A DNA stretch of 64,000 bases from Albidovulum sediminicola (GTDB lineage: Bacteria; Pseudomonadota; Alphaproteobacteria; Rhodobacterales; Rhodobacteraceae): NCBI RefSeq assembly GCF_025751575.1, contig NZ_JAOWLA010000002.1, positions 62,001-126,000 on the forward strand. The letters run 5' to 3'. The stretch's first letter is position 1. Every line of letters begins with the position of its first letter. The notes below the pieces were generated by a model, which saw only the letters and a list, made by a program, of their open reading frames with translations, was not told the origin of the DNA and did not search any database. Positions 37,865 through 46,816 of this stretch are shown piece by piece. A program made the translations under genes and the position numbers.

Positions 37865-38343
37865 GTCTCGCGCCCCTCGTCCAGAAGCGAAGCCGCCAGC
37901 GCCCGGTCTGCCGCGTCAAGCTCCGGCTCTGCCGGTTGGACCCGTCGCCGCCAGAGGCGTGAGAAGCCGAGGACCGTGACGATGAGCAGGATCGCCGGGC
38001 CGGACCAGAGCGCATAGGTCAGCGGGCGCACCGGCGGGTCGAGCAGCACGAAGCTGCCGAAGCGATCAACCAGGAACGCGACCGCCGCGTCGTCGCTATC
38101 GCCCGCGACCAGACGTTCGCGCAGGATCACCCGCATGTCGCGCGCCAGTGCCGCGTTGGAATCGTCGATGGACTGGTTGCGGCAGACCACGCACCGCAGG
38201 TCGCGGCTGAGCGCGCGGGCGCGCGCCTCAAGCGTGGCGTCGGCCAGAACCTCGTCCGGCAGGACGGCGAGCGCGGGGAGAGGCAGCGCGACGGGGCCCG
38301 CCAGCGTGGCGATCACCGCCAGGGGGATCAACGTACGCCTCAT
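37861..38343 (-). CDS. ccmH: Cytochrome c maturation protein CcmH (CycL)
   Basis: 160 aa from the ATG at 38343 (ATGA overlap with ccmF); the open frame further upstream lies within ccmF. Signal peptide about 1-25, the apocytochrome thiol-reducing motif LRCVVCRNQS, and a C-terminal membrane helix (ALWSGPAILLIVTVLGF). CcmH reduces the CxxCH disulfide before haem attachment. Confidence 0.94.
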   Translation of the reverse strand: MRRTLIPLAVIATLAGPVALPLPALAVLPDEVLADATLEARARALSRDLRCVVCRNQSIDDSNAALARDMRVILRERLVAGDSDDAAVAFLVDRFGSFVLLDPPVRPLTYALWSGPAILLIVTVLGFSRLWRRRVQPAEPELDAADRALAASLLDEGRET

Positions 38344-40316
38344 GCCCGCACCGCCTGTGCCGCCGGTCGCGCGGACAGCGTGCCCACGCGGAAGCGGCGG
38401 TCGATCAGCGACAGGAGACCGCCGAGCGCCATGATCAGCGGCCCCAGCCAGATCAGGATCACGAAGGGGTGGTAGTAGACCCGCACCCCCCACTTGCCGG
38501 TGCCCGAGGGGCCGCTGACCGACACGTAAAGGTTGCTGAGGAACCTCGGTGCGATCGCGGCCTCGGTCGTCACCCGGCGGCTGACGGGGTAGTAGCGGCG
38601 CTCTGCCTCCATCACCGTCACGGGGCGGGCGTCCCGTTCGACGGCGAAGCTTGCGCGCTCGACCTCGTAATTCGCCTCAAGCGTCACGCGCACCGATTGC
38701 AGCGTGAAGTCATAGCCACCGGCGGAGATGCTCTCGCCCTCCTTAAGCGCGGCGATGATCTCCTCTTCCCACAGGGTCATGCAGGTGATGCCTGCGATCA
38801 GCAGCCCAAGACCGGCATGGGCAAGGACCGTGCCCCAGGTGGCGAGCGGCGTCGTGCGCAGGAGCGTCCAAGCCCGCGCGCGGGGCAGGCGGGAGGGCTG
38901 CGCGCGCGCCACGACGATCCAGAAGGCGCCAAGCACCAGCCAGATCGCCAGCCCCAGCCCAAGCGCCGCGCCCAGCCCCGTCATGCCGCCAAGCGCCGTC
39001 GCGGCCAGCGCGGCAAGGCCTGCGGCGGCCAGAGGCCAGCGCAAGCGGATCAGCGCCGCGCCCAGCTGATCGCGCTTCCACCGCAGGAACGGTCCGACGC
39101 TCAGCGCCAGCGCCAGCACCGCCATGATCGGCCCGAAGCTGCGGTTGAAATAGGGCGGGCCGACCGAGATCTTCTCCGGTCCGATCATCTCGACGAAAAG
39201 CGGGTAGAAGGTGCCCAGGAACACCGTGGCGGTCGCGACGACCAGAAGGATGTTATTGAGGATCAGCGCGCCCTCGCGGCTGACGGGGCGGAAGGTCGCG
39301 GACTGGTCGAAATCCCCCGACCTCAGCGCGAAAAGCGTCAGGGCCCCGCCGGTGAAGGCGCTGAGGATGACCAGGACGCCCACCCCCCGCGCCGGGTCCG
39401 CGGCGAAGGCATGCACGCTGGTGATGACGCCGGAACGGACGACGAAGGTCCCGATCAGGCTCAATGAGAAGGTCAGGATCGCCAGGAGGATCGTCCAGAC
39501 GATCAGGGTCTGGCGCCGCTCCACCACCAGCGCGGAATGCAGAAGCGCGGTACCCACGAGCCAGGGCATGAAGCTTGCGTTTTCCACCGGGTCCCAGAAC
39601 CACCAGCCGCCCCAGCCGAGTTCGTAGTAGGCCCAGAAGCTGCCCAGCGTGATGCCGATGGTCAGGAAGATCCAGGCGAGCAGCACCCAGGGCCGCACCA
39701 GCCGCGCCCAGGCCGCGTCGATCCGCCCCTCGATCAGGGCGGCGACGGCGAAGGAAAAGACGATCGAGAAGCCCACATAGCCGAGATACAGGAAGGGCGG
39801 ATGCAGGATCAGCCCGATGTCCTGGAGAAGCGGGTTCAGCTCCATCCCCTGCGCCGGGGCGGGGTGAAGGCGCTCGAACGGGTTCGAGGTGAAAAGGCTC
39901 AGCGCCAGGAAGCTGACCGCGATCATCCCCTGCACCGCCAGCGTCCGCGCCTTTAGCGTCGCGGGCAGCGACCGCCCGAGGAGGGCCACGGCCGCGCCGA
40001 AGACCGACAGGATCAGTACCCAAAGCAGCAGCGAGCCCTCGTGGTTGCCCCAGGCGGCTGATAGCCGGAAATGAAGCGGCATCGCCGCGTTGGCGTTGTT
40101 CGCAACGACGGCGACCGAAAGGTCGGTGGCCGCGAAGGCCCGCAGCAGCATCGCCATCGCAAGGGCCACGAAGCCCAGTTGCGCGACGGCCGCACCATCG
40201 GCGAACCGCATCAGCGGCAGGATGCGCCGCCAGGCGCCATAGATTGGCACCGTCGCCTGCGCCACGGCGATCATCAGCGCGAGGATCATCGCGAAATGGC
40301 CGATTTCAGCTGTCAT
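38340..40316 (-). CDS. ccmF: Cytochrome c haem lyase subunit CcmF (CycK)
   Basis: 658 aa from the ATG at 40316, preceded by GAGGGGG. About 14-15 membrane helices. WGNHEGSLLLWV and the haem-handling WWD motif GWGGWWFWDPVENASF are clear, with conserved membrane His. CcmF, with CcmH and CcmI, attaches haem to apocytochromes. ccmF-ccmH-ccmI are coupled by ATGA overlaps; ccmE and ccmG are not in this cluster and must lie elsewhere. Confidence 0.96.
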   Translation of the reverse strand: MTAEIGHFAMILALMIAVAQATVPIYGAWRRILPLMRFADGAAVAQLGFVALAMAMLLRAFAATDLSVAVVANNANAAMPLHFRLSAAWGNHEGSLLLWVLILSVFGAAVALLGRSLPATLKARTLAVQGMIAVSFLALSLFTSNPFERLHPAPAQGMELNPLLQDIGLILHPPFLYLGYVGFSIVFSFAVAALIEGRIDAAWARLVRPWVLLAWIFLTIGITLGSFWAYYELGWGGWWFWDPVENASFMPWLVGTALLHSALVVERRQTLIVWTILLAILTFSLSLIGTFVVRSGVITSVHAFAADPARGVGVLVILSAFTGGALTLFALRSGDFDQSATFRPVSREGALILNNILLVVATATVFLGTFYPLFVEMIGPEKISVGPPYFNRSFGPIMAVLALALSVGPFLRWKRDQLGAALIRLRWPLAAAGLAALAATALGGMTGLGAALGLGLAIWLVLGAFWIVVARAQPSRLPRARAWTLLRTTPLATWGTVLAHAGLGLLIAGITCMTLWEEEIIAALKEGESISAGGYDFTLQSVRVTLEANYEVERASFAVERDARPVTVMEAERRYYPVSRRVTTEAAIAPRFLSNLYVSVSGPSGTGKWGVRVYYHPFVILIWLGPLIMALGGLLSLIDRRFRVGTLSARPAAQAVRA

Positions 40317-40398
40317 GCCGCTGCCCCCTCGGCGTCCGGCCGGTTTTCCCTGCGTAGGGACCACGCGCCGTCAGGGACGACGCGCGGCCGCTCGCCGC

Positions 40399-41781: not shown

Positions 41782-43083
41782 ATGACATTGGCTCGCCTGC
41801 TTGTAATGATTGCCCTGGCCTTGGGCCTCGCGGCCCCGGCCGCACAGGCCGAGTTGAAGCTTGCCAATGTGGGCAAGACCGTGACCGGCGACCACCGCAT
41901 CGCGCTGGTCATCGGCAATGGCCGCTACGAGGCCATCGGCGCGCTCGACAACACCGTCAGCGATGCCGAGTTGATGGCGCGGACCCTGACCGGGGTGGGT
42001 TTCGAGGTCACCAACCTGATCGACGCCGACCAGAACGCGATGAAGCGCGGCATCGCGAATTTCGGGCGCGCGCTGCGCGAGGCGGGGCCCGATACGGTCG
42101 CGCTTTTCTACTACGCGGGCCATGCGGTGCAGTCCTTTGGCACCAACTACCTGCTGCCCGTCGACAGCGCCATCCGCGACCAGGCCGATCTTGATCTTGT
42201 CGGGGTAGAGGCGGGGTGGATCCTGCGTCAGCTCTACTCGGCGCGGGTGCGCACCAATATCGTCATCCTCGACAGTTGCCGGAACAACCCGTTTCCCAAC
42301 GTCGCGGGCTTCCGCGATCAGGGCCTGGCAGAGATGAACGCGCCCACGGGCAGCTTCATCGCCTATGCGACCGCGCCGGGCAGCGTGGCGCTGGACGGGC
42401 TTTCGGGCAACAGCCCCTACACGAGCGCGCTGGCCAGGGCGATCGCGTCCGACCGGGAATCGATCGAGCTTCTGTTCAAGAAGGTGCGCGTCCAGGTGCT
42501 TGAGACCACCGGCGGCGCGCAGACGCCCTGGGAAAGCTCCTCACTGACGTCGGATTTCTATTTCCAGTCCGAAGGGAAGGGCGGGAGCGCGCCCGCCGCT
42601 GCCGCCCCGTCGAATGCTGAGGAAACGCTTTGGACCTCGGTCAAGGACAGCGGTGACGCGACGCAGGTCCAGCTTTACCTCTGGACCTTCCCGCAGGGCC
42701 GCCACCGGGGCGAGGCGGAATCGCTTCTGGCCGCGCTGACCCGGCCCAAGCCGGAGGCCCCGCAGCCCGACCCTGCGCAGGACGGCGTCGTCGCGGTCAC
42801 CTTCACCGCCCCCGTCGAAAAGGGCGAGCCGCAGATCGTCGGGCGTTCGATCCAGGAGCTGATCAAGAGCCAGCCGCTCTTCCCGCCGTTCGAGGGCATT
42901 CCCGACGAGCTCTGGAAGGGGCAGCATTGCACCAACTGCCACGATTGGACGAAGGAACGCATCTGCGAGCAGGCGAAGTTCTACGTCACCGAACAGGCCG
43001 AGCGGTCGCTGGACAAGCCCCATCCGCTTGGCGTCGAGTTCAAGCAGCACCTGCGCAGCTGGGCCATGGGCGGCTGCCGCTAG
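41782..43083 (+). CDS. Secreted caspase-like protein with C-terminal CxxCH (haem c-like) domain
   Basis: 433 aa from the ATG at 41782. Signal peptide 1-23 (cut near AQA). Caspase p20 fold with His114 (YYAGHAVQS) and Cys166 (ILDSCRNNPF), so the catalytic dyad is intact. A linker around residues 270-330 leads to a C-terminal domain with IPDELWKGQHC, CTNCH at 383-387, two more Cys (ERICEQ; the final MGGCR) and several His. CxxCH is a covalent haem motif in an exported protein, though a zinc site is possible. It converges with the TPR-barrel gene of the multihaem cytochrome pair. Confidence 0.8.
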   Translation: MTLARLLVMIALALGLAAPAAQAELKLANVGKTVTGDHRIALVIGNGRYEAIGALDNTVSDAELMARTLTGVGFEVTNLIDADQNAMKRGIANFGRALREAGPDTVALFYYAGHAVQSFGTNYLLPVDSAIRDQADLDLVGVEAGWILRQLYSARVRTNIVILDSCRNNPFPNVAGFRDQGLAEMNAPTGSFIAYATAPGSVALDGLSGNSPYTSALARAIASDRESIELLFKKVRVQVLETTGGAQTPWESSSLTSDFYFQSEGKGGSAPAAAAPSNAEETLWTSVKDSGDATQVQLYLWTFPQGRHRGEAESLLAALTRPKPEAPQPDPAQDGVVAVTFTAPVEKGEPQIVGRSIQELIKSQPLFPPFEGIPDELWKGQHCTNCHDWTKERICEQAKFYVTEQAERSLDKPHPLGVEFKQHLRSWAMGGCR

Positions 43084-43146: not shown

Positions 43147-44949
43147 TCAGAACGACTTGGAGACGCCCGCGATGAAGTAGAGTTCCTTCTGCTTCTCGCG
43201 CGTGGTCGAGGTGTCCGTTTGCGACCAGCGCCCGCCCGCGTCGAACTGCAGGCTGGTGGAGCGATCGATCTTGTAGCGGAAGTTGACCGAGGGCATCACG
43301 AAGGTCTCGTCCCCGTCCGCAAGATCGCGGTAGCCGACGCGCAGGCGCGGGCTGACGTGGATGTTTTCCGCGACCGGGATGCGGATCGAGCCGTCGGCGA
43401 CGTAAAGATCGCTTCCGGGCGCGTCGGCGTAGCGCAGGCCAAGGTTCACACGGTCGTCCTCCATGAGGATCGAGGAGCCGGTGAAGCGCACGCCGTAATA
43501 GCCGCGCACGCCCTCGTCCGGCACCGCGGCCACCGGCGTTCCGGTCGTCGTCGCGGGCTTGGAGCTCTGGTTGAAGAGGGTTCCGTCCAGCGACAGGTCC
43601 CAGCTTTCGTTCAGCTTGCCGTAGTAGGTCAGGCCCAGCGTCGTTACCTTGGAGGAGCGGGCGATCGCCAGATCCTCCACCGCGTCCTCGCCGAAAAGCG
43701 CGACGAGGTCCTCGACGGTGGTGGCGCCCTGTCCGATCAGCGCGTTGTCGAGGTTCAGCTGCGGGCTGCGATAGTGCGACAGCCGCCCGGTTACGCGGGC
43801 GTTGTTCTCCAGCCGGGCCGATCCGGTCACCAGAAGGCGGGTGATCTCCTCGAACTTGAGGTCGTATTCGGCGTTCGCATAAAGGTTCATTCCGTCGAAG
43901 CTGCGCTGGTATTCGACCCCCAGCGCATGGCGATAGGTGAGGGAATCCTCGCGCTCCATCGCGGTGTAGACGGTCAGGTCGCCGGCGCCGCCGAGGTCTT
44001 CCCAGGTGGCGCTCGCCCCGAGCAGCCAGCGGTCGGCCGACAGGAAGTCGTCGCGCGAGCTTTCCACGACCTGGCCCAGGACCGCGCCCAGCGTCACGCC
44101 GCTGCCGGTCGGCCATTTCAGCGACACGCCGTCGGTCCGGTAGGCGATGGCGCGCGGGTCGAGCTTCTGGCGGCCCACCGTGACCACCCGGCCCGATGCC
44201 TTGTCCTCGAATGCGACCAGCGCCTCGGAGAGCCGCAGGTCGGTGTCGCCCTCCTCGAAGTCGTGCTCGAGCAGGCCCGAGAAGGTCAGGCGCACGCGGC
44301 GGTCGGCGTTGTCGATCGTGCGTGTGTAGTTCAGCCCCGCGACAAGCGCGTTCTCGAACGTGTCGTCCTCTTCCGTGATGTCGTCGGGGTCGGGCGTGAG
44401 ATCGGTGATCTCGGTCGTGCCCTCGTTGTAGCGATAGGTGAGCGAGAAGTGCCCGCGGTCGCGCACCACGGTCCCGGTCGCGGCCTCGTCCGCCGCGGCG
44501 GCGGTCGCCGCGGCCGTGCGGCGCGGCGCGGTGGCGGTGCGGGGGGGCGTCGCGACGACGACTGCGGCGGGCGGGTTGGGCGGCATCGGGGCGGCCCCCG
44601 ACAGGATCGCGTTCAACCGTGCGCGGACCCGCGCCGCGCCCTCGCCGTTGGGGTATTTCTGCAGATAGATTTCGTATTCCGCCTTGGCATGGGCGAGCTG
44701 GCCGTTCGCCTCGCGCACGTTGCCCAGAAGCTCCTGCGCGCGGGCGCTGTAGGCGTTCTCGGGCATCGCGATCAGCCGCGTCAGCAACTGCACGGCGCGC
44801 AGATATTCCTGCGCGTCCGCGGCCTGCTCGGCCTGTTGCATCAGGTTTTGCACCGCGGCGCTTGGCTGGGCGGTCTGGGCCGCGCTCAGTTCTGCCTGCC
44901 CGATCTGGAGCGCCAGGACCAGCAGGCCGATGCTCTTGATCTGTTTCAT
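43147..44949 (-). CDS. Outer-membrane beta-barrel protein with N-terminal TPR domain
   Basis: 600 aa, GGAG upstream. Signal peptide about 1-23, then two or three TPR motifs (residues 30-115, ending YPNGEGAARVRARLNAIL), a Pro/Ala/Thr linker (residues 118-150) and about 440 residues of alternating strands. The chain closes with IAGVSKSF, a terminal Phe typical of outer-membrane barrels. It follows the 20-haem cytochrome in the same direction with 154 bp between, like porin-cytochrome pairs (MtrAB, PioAB); homology to MtrB/PioB is not shown. TPR plus barrel is also the layout of Slam secretion proteins, which is the main alternative. Confidence 0.7.
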   Translation of the reverse strand: MKQIKSIGLLVLALQIGQAELSAAQTAQPSAAVQNLMQQAEQAADAQEYLRAVQLLTRLIAMPENAYSARAQELLGNVREANGQLAHAKAEYEIYLQKYPNGEGAARVRARLNAILSGAAPMPPNPPAAVVVATPPRTATAPRRTAAATAAAADEAATGTVVRDRGHFSLTYRYNEGTTEITDLTPDPDDITEEDDTFENALVAGLNYTRTIDNADRRVRLTFSGLLEHDFEEGDTDLRLSEALVAFEDKASGRVVTVGRQKLDPRAIAYRTDGVSLKWPTGSGVTLGAVLGQVVESSRDDFLSADRWLLGASATWEDLGGAGDLTVYTAMEREDSLTYRHALGVEYQRSFDGMNLYANAEYDLKFEEITRLLVTGSARLENNARVTGRLSHYRSPQLNLDNALIGQGATTVEDLVALFGEDAVEDLAIARSSKVTTLGLTYYGKLNESWDLSLDGTLFNQSSKPATTTGTPVAAVPDEGVRGYYGVRFTGSSILMEDDRVNLGLRYADAPGSDLYVADGSIRIPVAENIHVSPRLRVGYRDLADGDETFVMPSVNFRYKIDRSTSLQFDAGGRWSQTDTSTTREKQKELYFIAGVSKSF

Positions 44950-45103
44950 TGCCTTACTCCGTTTCCGCCGGCTTCAAATCCCTGCCGGTCTGGTGCGGGT
45001 GCCCCGCTTCCGGGGGCTTGCCGCAATGTCAACTGTCAATCTGGGTTCCGGCCCGGTGCCCCGACGTGGCGGTGCGATATTCCAGGGGCCGCAACCCTCT
45101 TAC

Positions 45104-46750
45104 CTAGTGGCAGTAGCTGCAGTCGTCCGGGTCGCTCAGGGATCCGCGGCCGCCGGGCAGGTTTGTATCGATCCAGCTCATGACGCCGGAGTAGCTGAAC
45201 CATGTATCGGTGCTCGTGTGGCAACCGGCGCAATCCGTGGCGATCCCGATGGATTCATGCCAGGAGGGCGGCGTGTCGGCGGTATAGGTGTTGCCGGAGA
45301 AGTGGCAACCCTCGCAGGTGCCGATCACTTCGGCGTGGTCCACGTCAAGCGATGCCGTGAAGCTTGTGGTCGAGCCGTGACAGGCCGCGCAGTCGGTCGA
45401 GGTCGGCATGTGATCGCCCGGCTGGGCCGGAGCGCCCCAGGTGTTGCCGGAGAAGTGGCACGACGCGCAGTCGCCGACAACCTCGGCATGGTCCACGCTC
45501 AGCGAAGCGGTGAAGCTTGTGGTCGAGCCGTGGCAGGCCGCGCAGTCGTTCGAGGTTGACATGTGGTCGCCAGGTTTGGCAGGCGCGCCCCAGGTGTTGC
45601 CGGAGAAGTGGCACGAGGCGCAGTCGCCGACAACCTCGGCATGGTCCACGCTCAGCGAAGCGGTGAAACTTGCGGTCGAACCGTGACAGGCCGCGCAGTC
45701 GTCGGTGGTGGCCATGTGGCTTGCCGGCTGCGCGGGCGCGCCGAAGCTGTTGCCGCTGAAGTGGCAAGCCGCGCAGGGCTCCGTCGTCTCGGAGTGCTGG
45801 AAGGTCCGGCCGATCGAGAAGGCCATGGTGTTGTGGCACTCCGCGCAGTCCTGCGAGACCGGCGGGTGGCTCGGCGGCTGGGATTCGGCGCCCCAGGGGT
45901 TGCCGTCGAAGTGGCAGGACGCGCAGGCGCCCGGGACTGCGTCATGGTCCAGGTTCACCACCGCGAAGCTGCGCTCGAAGAACGGCGAATGGCAGGTGTC
46001 GCAGGTTTCCGGCGCCGGGATGTGATCGACGGGCTTGCCCATCGCAGTCGTGCCGTTGTGGCAGTTGGCGCAGGGCTGATCGACCAGCAGGTGATCGACC
46101 GCGCCGCCCGCGAAGGTCAGCGTTCCGTGGCAGGCCGCGCAATCGTCGGGCGCCTGGATGTGGTTCGCCGGCTGGCCGGGCGCGGTCACGCCGTTGTGGC
46201 ACGAAGCGCAGCTTCCCAGCACGTCGCGGTGATCGACGCGGACGTCCTTGCGGTTGGTGGTGACGTGGCAGTTGTCGCAGCTGTCGCTGGCGGGGATATG
46301 GTTCGCGGGTTTGCCGCGCGCCTTTGACCCGTTGTGGCAGGTCGCGCATTCCTGCGTGATTTGCGTGTGATCAAAGGCGAAGGGCACGAAGTTGCGCGAG
46401 GTGTGGCAATCCTGACAGTTGTTGCCGACCGGCGGGTGAGAGGCGGGCTTGCCGCGCGCCAGACCGCCGTCATGGCAGGCCACGCAGTCGCTAGGCGTGC
46501 CCTTGGTGGTGTTGTTGACGTGGCAGGCCTCGCAGAAGATCTCGGCGTGGCGTCCGGTCAGCGGAATGCCGCCGGCCTGGACGTGATCGAAGCCGGGCAT
46601 GGAGTTCGCGCTGTCCTGCGCGGCGGCGGGCGTCGCGGCCATCACCAGCAGTGCAACAACAAGGCCGCAAAGGATGAACAGAGCTTCCCGGCTGGTCCGA
46701 AGGGCGCGGCCCACGATGGGATGCGCCGGCTCAAAGGGCCCAAAGATCAT
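45104..46750 (-). CDS. Exported 20-haem c-type cytochrome
   Basis: 548 aa from the ATG at 46750 (GGAG upstream); a GTG at 46774 would add eight residues. The signal peptide has a long n-region and a hydrophobic core at residues 24-40, cut near AAAQ. Twenty CxxCH motifs follow, the first at 73-77 and the last forming the C-terminus (CSYCH, 544-548). Motifs 3 to 18 all have the spacing His-x6-CxxCH, so the preceding His is probably the second axial ligand (bis-His, cytochrome c3/c7-like). No other domain is visible. Likely a periplasmic or outer-membrane electron wire paired with the downstream barrel protein. Confidence 0.9.
   Translation of the reverse strand: MIFGPFEPAHPIVGRALRTSREALFILCGLVVALLVMAATPAAAQDSANSMPGFDHVQAGGIPLTGRHAEIFCEACHVNNTTKGTPSDCVACHDGGLARGKPASHPPVGNNCQDCHTSRNFVPFAFDHTQITQECATCHNGSKARGKPANHIPASDSCDNCHVTTNRKDVRVDHRDVLGSCASCHNGVTAPGQPANHIQAPDDCAACHGTLTFAGGAVDHLLVDQPCANCHNGTTAMGKPVDHIPAPETCDTCHSPFFERSFAVVNLDHDAVPGACASCHFDGNPWGAESQPPSHPPVSQDCAECHNTMAFSIGRTFQHSETTEPCAACHFSGNSFGAPAQPASHMATTDDCAACHGSTASFTASLSVDHAEVVGDCASCHFSGNTWGAPAKPGDHMSTSNDCAACHGSTTSFTASLSVDHAEVVGDCASCHFSGNTWGAPAQPGDHMPTSTDCAACHGSTTSFTASLDVDHAEVIGTCEGCHFSGNTYTADTPPSWHESIGIATDCAGCHTSTDTWFSYSGVMSWIDTNLPGGRGSLSDPDDCSYCH
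45291..45749 (-). repeat. Three tandem 153-bp repeats inside the multihaem cytochrome gene
   Basis: TTGCCG(G/C)(A/T)GAAGTGGCA recurs at 45291, 45444, 45597 and 45750, an exact 153-bp period. Each unit codes 51 residues with two haem motifs (CAACHGST...VDHAEVVGDCASCHFSGN). The two right units are nearly identical in DNA; the left one is more diverged. Confidence 0.9.
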
Positions 46751-46816
46751 GCCGAATTCTCCAAACTGTCCCACGAAGCTTTTCGAAATGCCGGGCGGTT
46801 ATCCGCTTATATGATG

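Follow-up and report, generated by a model that had tools for sequence, protein, structure and literature searches.

A PCC3-type porin and an extracellular-class cytochrome encoded side by side in Albidovulum sediminicola, with the inner parts of PCC3 not found in the genome

A 64,000-nucleotide stretch of the genome of Albidovulum sediminicola (Rhodobacterales, Rhodobacteraceae; contig NZ_JAOWLA010000002.1, positions 62,001 to 126,000; referred to here as the window) encodes, one after the other, a 20-haem cytochrome and a predicted outer-membrane porin. Both proteins are homologous to their counterparts in the porin–cytochrome system PCC3, are encoded in the same order and are under purifying selection, and the inner parts of that system were not found in the genome. 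On balance, the pair is probably a reduced two-gene PCC3 of Rhodobacterales, in which a surface cytochrome and its porin would be wired to ordinary periplasmic cytochromes. In passages of He et al. (2017, PMC5566968), PCC3 consists of a porin, an extracellular and a periplasmic multihaem cytochrome, and an inner-membrane protein with an SGXXG motif and two WX3HX13H motifs. The first-pass annotation of the window had taken the pair for a possible new type of electron conduit; this was not borne out, as the pair belongs to PCC3, which was published in 2017. It had also missed that two parts needed for a complete PCC3, the inner-membrane protein and the periplasmic cytochrome, were not found in this genome. 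PCC3 itself is known; what is new here is what the short form is missing, and PCC3 parts are placed in Rhodobacterales, for which the searches made gave no report.

The gene pair

The features of the pair, in window positions, are the following.
45104..46750, minus strand: PCC3-type extracellular multihaem cytochrome (eMHC), 548 amino acids, 20 CxxCH motifs, classed by sequence
45286..45776, minus strand: recent tandem array within the cytochrome gene, unit of 153 bp (51 amino acids, two haems), 3.2 copies, 85% matches
43147..44949, minus strand: PCC3-type porin, 600 amino acids, with signal, tetratricopeptide repeat (TPR) region, Ala/Pro linker, predicted outer-membrane barrel and final Phe
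44596..44844, minus strand: TPR region of the porin, residues about 36-118, aligned across seven porins
43150..44460, minus strand: predicted beta-barrel part of the porin, residues about 164-600

The cytochrome reading frame spans 45104-46774 on the minus strand, and translation from the ATG at 46750 yields 548 amino acids. A recount and shuffling agreed with the earlier count of 20 CxxCH motifs in an exported protein, 16 of them in the form His-x6-CxxCH. In 2000 shuffles of the protein, CxxCH occurred 0.22 times on average (maximum 3) and His-x6-CxxCH 0.02 times (maximum 1). The N-terminus reads as a Sec-type signal that ends near AAA-QDS, with no evident lipobox. In the haem region every cysteine lies within a CxxCH and 19 other histidines are available for 20 haems, so that nearly all haems could be bis-His ligated. 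The protein has 24.6 residues per haem counted from the first motif (548/20 = 27.4 over its whole length), consists to 39.1% of Thr, Ser, Ala and Gly, and carries repeats of 51 amino acids. The tandem array suggests that haem number varies by gain and loss of repeats, three close relatives having 20, 21 and 19 haems. Pfam and NCBIfam assigned the protein to broad multihaem families only; it scored 67.4 bits against the DmsE-family decahaem model (cut-off 192.2), and a search of the PDB gave no match at an expect value (E) of 0.001.

The porin gene lies about 150 bp downstream of the cytochrome gene on the same strand. Its product begins with a signal-like sequence and ends in Phe, and the earlier description of an exported protein of 600 residues with a TPR region and a linker was confirmed, the TPR region being real but weak and the barrel predicted. 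Four TPR models of Pfam were listed for the protein, none of which reached its cut-off (0/4), and columns 26-91 of a seven-porin profile matched the TPR-like protein CpoB (E 8e-7); the region would fit about two TPRs and no long array. The C-terminal 430-440 residues are predicted to form a beta-barrel on the basis of the terminal Phe and of relatives that stand at the porin position of PCC3 clusters. Searches of Pfam and NCBIfam up to E 0.1 gave weak TPR-type matches and no MtrB or PioB model. A porin profile searched against the PDB up to E 10 matched TPR proteins, with no MtrB chain and no exporter barrel, and a PHROGs search with the porin gave no match. A crude count of amphipathic strands (21 segments; column shuffles mean 16.5, maximum 22) was dropped as evidence, and an AlphaFold2 model built from two sequences, those of the window and locus L003, was unusable (mean confidence score, pLDDT, 32) and was set aside.

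Conserved pairing and membership of PCC3

Porin loci were read in nine genomes, denoted by G numbers, with L numbers for loci. Three carry the short form: the genome of the window (G000), A. sediminis (locus L003, apparently the same assembly as G803) and G068; the six distant ones are G502, G385, G748, G562, G876 and G874. An open reading frame (ORF) rich in CxxCH lies directly upstream of the full-length porin relative, on the same strand, in 9/9 loci, and the pairing of cytochrome and predicted barrel that the first-pass annotation had put forward for checking is therefore conserved.

With the single porin sequence as query, 2 of 149 genomes of the family were matched, and a search of the genus matched 2 of 22. 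With porin profiles, the genomes that had relatives along most of the length numbered 3 of 385 and 3 of 367 in the class, and 4 of 299 and, with a wider profile, 6 of 398 in the phylum. All of these counts include the genome of the window, and the class and phylum samples overlap. Genomes whose matches were confined to the TPR and linker columns were left out (8 of 11 matching genomes in the 385-genome class sample, 7 of 11 in the 299-genome phylum sample, 11 of 17 in the 398-genome phylum sample and 3 of 6 in the 367-genome class sample). A three-sequence profile matched the porins of G502 (E 6e-47) and G385 (E 1e-40) over most of their length; in the phylum genomes the profile matched G748 (E 2e-16) and, in two pieces, G562 (E 5e-14), and a seven-sequence profile matched G876 (E 4e-137) and G874 (E 5e-97). 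By BLAST, the window porin aligned with the six distant porins over 384-621 positions at E 8e-51 to 4e-16, in a database of nine sequences.

The converse of the pairing is not strict. A search with the cytochrome matched four of the 149 family genomes (G000, G068, G110 and G141). G110 has such a cytochrome, but neither the 17 kb read there nor the single-sequence search revealed a porin; the match in G141 was weak (E 2e-4), and the 10 kb read there held no ORF with two or more CxxCH motifs. The pair is retained in three genomes of two genera. Among plasmids, neither the window porin nor the G502 porin had a match; the window cytochrome matched one record. The PCC3 inner-membrane protein matched 14 records, each at less than 60% identity, and the one read among them was that of Emticicia.

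The six distant loci were assigned to PCC3 by the content of their clusters, and no named PCC3 porin was compared directly with the window porin. The inner-membrane protein, searched with the G502 sequence, was found in 6/6 distant genomes; both W-x3-H-x13-H motifs are present at L078, L079, L080 and L082 and are also visible at L026 and L027. A cytochrome of 21-24 haems follows the inner-membrane protein in all six (published passages give the periplasmic PCC3 cytochrome a median of 21 haems, and 21-27 in Gallionellaceae). The clusters of G502, G748 and G874 run from the inner-membrane protein through the periplasmic and then the extracellular cytochrome to the porin, the same order in which the parts of Slit_1446-1449 of Sideroxydans ES-1 are listed in the passages concerned; G874 has an additional 13-haem ORF after the porin. 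In G385, G562 and G876 the halves of the cluster lie on separate contigs, and the porin-side cytochromes are partial, cut at contig ends. Since each of the two contigs ends within a haem-rich gene, the halves of a given genome would belong together. Passages setting out the PCC3 criteria give 22-39 residues per haem and repeats rich in Thr, Ser, Ala and Gly. The window agrees with PCC3 in these two features, in a porin adjoining the cytochrome gene and in a cytochrome that is, by sequence, of the extracellular class; neither an inner-membrane protein bearing W-x3-H-x13-H motifs nor a multihaem cytochrome of the periplasmic type was found.

Class of the cytochrome

Judged by bit scores, composition and histidine pattern, the window cytochrome falls into the PCC3 extracellular class. 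It scored 285 bits against the extracellular type of G502 (523 amino acids) and 149 bits against that of G748, compared with at most 90 bits against seven periplasmic types. Lys and Arg together make up 3.4% of its residues, 3.4-7.4% in the six distant porin-side cytochromes and 5.1-21.7% in the seven periplasmic ones, and its 39% of Thr, Ser, Ala and Gly is in line with the extracellular type as described in published passages. The histidine register is the clearest class mark. In five complete porin-side cytochromes, the number of histidines between successive motifs starts with 2 and 0 and is then 1 almost throughout, the exceptions being four larger counts and a final 0 in G502 and a final 0 in the window; in five periplasmic cytochromes it mostly cycles through 1, 2 and 0, with G562 the least regular. 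The window cytochrome has the porin-side pattern. This class assignment lends no support to the earlier proposal of an MtrA-like 20-haem wire passing through the barrel.

Missing inner parts

The G502 inner-membrane protein had no match in G000, G803 or G068 (0/3 short-form genomes; completeness 99.98%, 100% and 76%, respectively), and none in seven further genomes of the same family without the porin. A search with the G502 periplasmic cytochrome found the periplasmic type in G748, G385 and G562, nothing in G803 and, in G000 and G068, no more than the extracellular cytochrome of each.

The porin is also shorter in these genomes. The window porin begins at the TPR region and has roughly 140-270 N-terminal residues fewer than the six distant porins. 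Its first aligned residue corresponds to distant positions as follows: 36 to 304 in G385, 34 to 194 in G502, 36 to 213 in G874, 11 to 254 in G562, 48 to 290 in G876 and 52 to 297 in G748, where the positions for G874, G876 and G748 count from the first codon after a stop and later start codons give the extension of about 140-270. A SPOR domain was recognized in the N-terminus of the porin at L029 (31.5 bits, cut-off 21) and, below the threshold, at L027 (19.1 bits), but not at L026, L028 or L078 (2/5 scanned had one; the G876 porin was outside the scan). Collectively, the inner-membrane protein, the periplasmic wire and the porin N-terminus are jointly absent in 3/3 short-form genomes and present in 6/6 distant ones. 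The three short-form cases are close relatives and probably represent one event.

Selection on the pair

Between the window and A. sediminis, the ratio of nonsynonymous to synonymous substitution (dN/dS) was 0.28 in the cytochrome gene and 0.29 in the porin gene, which argues against decay of the pair. For comparison, the values were 0.23 for ccmF, 0.21 for a neighbouring caspase gene, 0.10 for aroA and 0.08 for rpsA. Within the porin, the linker is unconstrained (nonsynonymous difference, pN, 0.26; synonymous difference, pS, 0.29), and the constrained parts are the region from the signal to the TPRs (pN 0.10, pS 0.35) and the barrel (pN 0.14, pS 0.40).

Proposed mechanism and alternatives

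In the mechanism that we propose for a reduced two-gene PCC3, the porin would reside in the outer membrane and its TPR region would be periplasmic. It would receive the cytochrome and either keep it at the surface or deliver it there, leaving a haem wire exposed to the outside. With this wire, common small c-type cytochromes of the periplasm would exchange electrons through the porin, in place of the dedicated periplasmic wire and the inner-membrane protein. Beyond homology, absence and selection, all of these steps, including transport through the barrel, its direction (uptake or disposal) and its substrate (a metal, a mineral or a partner cell), are what we infer from the sequences. A bolder version can be offered tentatively: the inner-membrane protein, the periplasmic wire and the porin N-terminus, which in some porins bears a SPOR domain, may have been lost together since the N-terminus serves the periplasmic wire, leaving a self-sufficient conduit of two genes that taps the periplasmic cytochrome pool, for example one fed by Sox, and acts as a portable outer half in Rhodobacterales.

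Several observations weigh against a reduced but working PCC3. First, dN/dS against the more distant G068 is higher (cytochrome 0.41, porin 0.46). Second, the last haem of the window cytochrome is without a distal histidine, none lying between the last two motifs (45104-45220), and it is possible that this haem is five-coordinate or differently ligated; the gap is absent from the cytochromes of A. sediminis (21 haems, 21 other histidines) and G068 (19 and 19). Third, the partial porin-side cytochrome of G562 scored 70 bits, less than the 90 reached by the best periplasmic one, and the term extracellular is itself a prediction in passages of the PCC3 literature. Fourth, a gene may escape notice in the genome of the window, which is 99.98% complete but split over 70 contigs, and the completeness of G068 is no more than 76%. 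Furthermore, G110 (L100), of the same family, encodes such an inner-membrane protein together with a periplasmic-type cytochrome of 9 haems, so that the group as a whole has not lost the inner parts. Finally, passages on Sideroxydans ES-1 report lower expression of PCC3 on Fe(II) than on thiosulfate, and Slit_1448, its extracellular cytochrome, is 0 in all eight proteome columns shown; on these passages, even the full PCC3 is without a demonstrated electron-transfer role.

Three other explanations of the pair were weighed. The TPR-barrel protein could be a dedicated exporter or anchor of the finished cytochrome, which would serve as a detached surface wire or electron store with no electrons crossing inside the barrel. 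A TPR region followed by a barrel is a known exporter layout, a cytochrome with a Sec-type signal and no evident lipobox needs a route out, and constant pairing of the genes (9/9 loci) suits a substrate and its exporter. However, a folded 20-haem protein is demanding to export, the porin profile matched TPR proteins and no exporter barrel of known structure, and passages of the PCC3 literature treat the barrel as part of a porin–cytochrome conduit; we consider this explanation unlikely. The model of the first-pass annotation, in which the cytochrome is threaded through the barrel as one chain from periplasm to surface, appears more doubtful still. The protein may have taken over the part of the periplasmic PCC3 cytochrome that was not found, and its 24.6 residues per haem are low, like those of wire-like cytochromes described in published passages, but its sequence class is extracellular and the predicted barrel part has about 437 amino acids. 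Least probable is that the pair is the remnant of a full PCC3 and has ceased to conduct or has another role (such as redox buffering or haem storage), since the missing links to the inner membrane and the split cytochrome of G110, where no porin was seen, are set against the dN/dS of both genes relative to A. sediminis, the 20 intact haem motifs and the retention of the pair in three genomes of two genera.

As a reduced PCC3, the pair is a natural case in which the outer-membrane unit occurs apart from the route through the inner membrane. This raises a testable question, namely whether a porin and an extracellular cytochrome alone are enough for redox activity at the cell surface, and it draws attention to the N-terminal region of the porin, which may serve the periplasmic wire.

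Neighbouring genes and related clusters

The first-pass annotation had pointed to sox and ccm genes next to the pair. They are nearby as stated, with soxX, Y, Z, A and B and the sulfite dehydrogenase gene soxC at 26.7-32.1 kb, 11-16 kb from the porin gene, and ccmF (38340-40364, minus strand, by family search) 2.8 kb past the porin 3' end; neither shows what the pair does. Sox was considered as the electron source of the pair and was not proven by a neighbourhood alone. A ccmF gene, for a haem lyase, is found near PCC3 genes in two alphaproteobacterial families, in the window and, by sequence reading, at L026 (1998-4016, minus strand).

A gene at 41782-43083 (plus strand) converges on the porin gene and encodes a caspase-fold (Peptidase_C14) protein, whose C-terminal domain has one CxxCH and may bind haem. 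It adjoins the pair in the window, L003 and G068. As a PCC3-specific partner it was rejected: of 149 genomes of the family, 53 have caspase relatives, the genome of the window among them. At 6 of 10 caspase loci read, the same C-terminal domain with CxxCH is present; it was not seen at the other four, scanned on the plus strand only. In G044, a caspase relative lies beside what is apparently the same YceI-OmpA gene, with no porin match in that genome and no ORF with two or more CxxCH motifs in the 16 kb read. It is near genes that we take to resemble type VI secretion genes.

In G110 (L100, 8019-12543), the extracellular-type cytochrome extends over two frames, with a Sel1/ankyrin-like gene on the other strand; at L028, too, a Sel1/ankyrin gene is found downstream of the porin. 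Plasmid pEMTOL02 of Emticicia oligotrophica (L104, NC_018749.1, 2198-13996) carries a PCC3-like cluster in Bacteroidota. It encodes CcsA, an inner-membrane protein with both WX3HX13H motifs, a Fer4/Pyr_redox_3 protein, 23-haem and 40-haem cytochromes and a 538-amino-acid hypothetical protein unmatched by the porin profile. A 440-amino-acid ferredoxin-domain/pyridine-nucleotide oxidoreductase is encoded both at L028 (6672-7991, minus strand) and at L104 (6150-7472, plus strand), with 47% identity over 440 amino acids. Its presence in proteobacterial and Bacteroidota PCC3-type clusters suggests an accessory enzyme of some PCC3 systems.

Comparison with known systems

Passages of the literature describe PCC3 as widespread and name it a candidate iron oxidase whose function is reported as unverified; in those on Sideroxydans CL21, two copies were expressed above the mean and PCC3 was again called functionally unverified. 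Iron oxidation specifically is not supported by the published data in the passages concerned. In the open-licence literature, supplements being outside the search, no report was found of a two-gene PCC3 without inner parts in Rhodobacterales. Rhodobacter is not named in the main text of He et al. (2017, PMC5566968), and in passages on extracellular electron transfer Defluviimonas is named once, as a community member. The PCC3 main texts searched, with one term per text, had no mention of the porin TPR region under tetratricopeptide or TPR, and a literature search yielded no paper describing it.

Compared to MtrAB, MtoAB and PioAB, the pair follows the same general idea of a barrel and a multihaem cytochrome at the outer membrane. 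However, its cytochrome has 20 haems rather than 10 and misses the DmsE-family cut-off, and its porin has no MtrB or PioB family match and carries a TPR region. The TPR-barrel proteins PgaA, BcsC and Slam, which export polymers or lipoproteins, likewise combine a TPR region in the periplasm with an outer-membrane barrel at the C-terminus; the window porin matched none of the three in the searches of Pfam, NCBIfam and the PDB, and its partner is a multihaem cytochrome. Compared to PCC3 (He et al. 2017, PMC5566968; Sideroxydans Slit_1446-1449), the window genome differs in that neither an inner-membrane protein nor a periplasmic cytochrome was found and in that its porin is without the N-terminal extension. 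It agrees with PCC3 in the homologous porin and extracellular cytochrome, in the cytochrome–porin gene order, and in the low number of residues per haem and the Thr-, Ser-, Ala- and Gly-rich repeats of the cytochrome.

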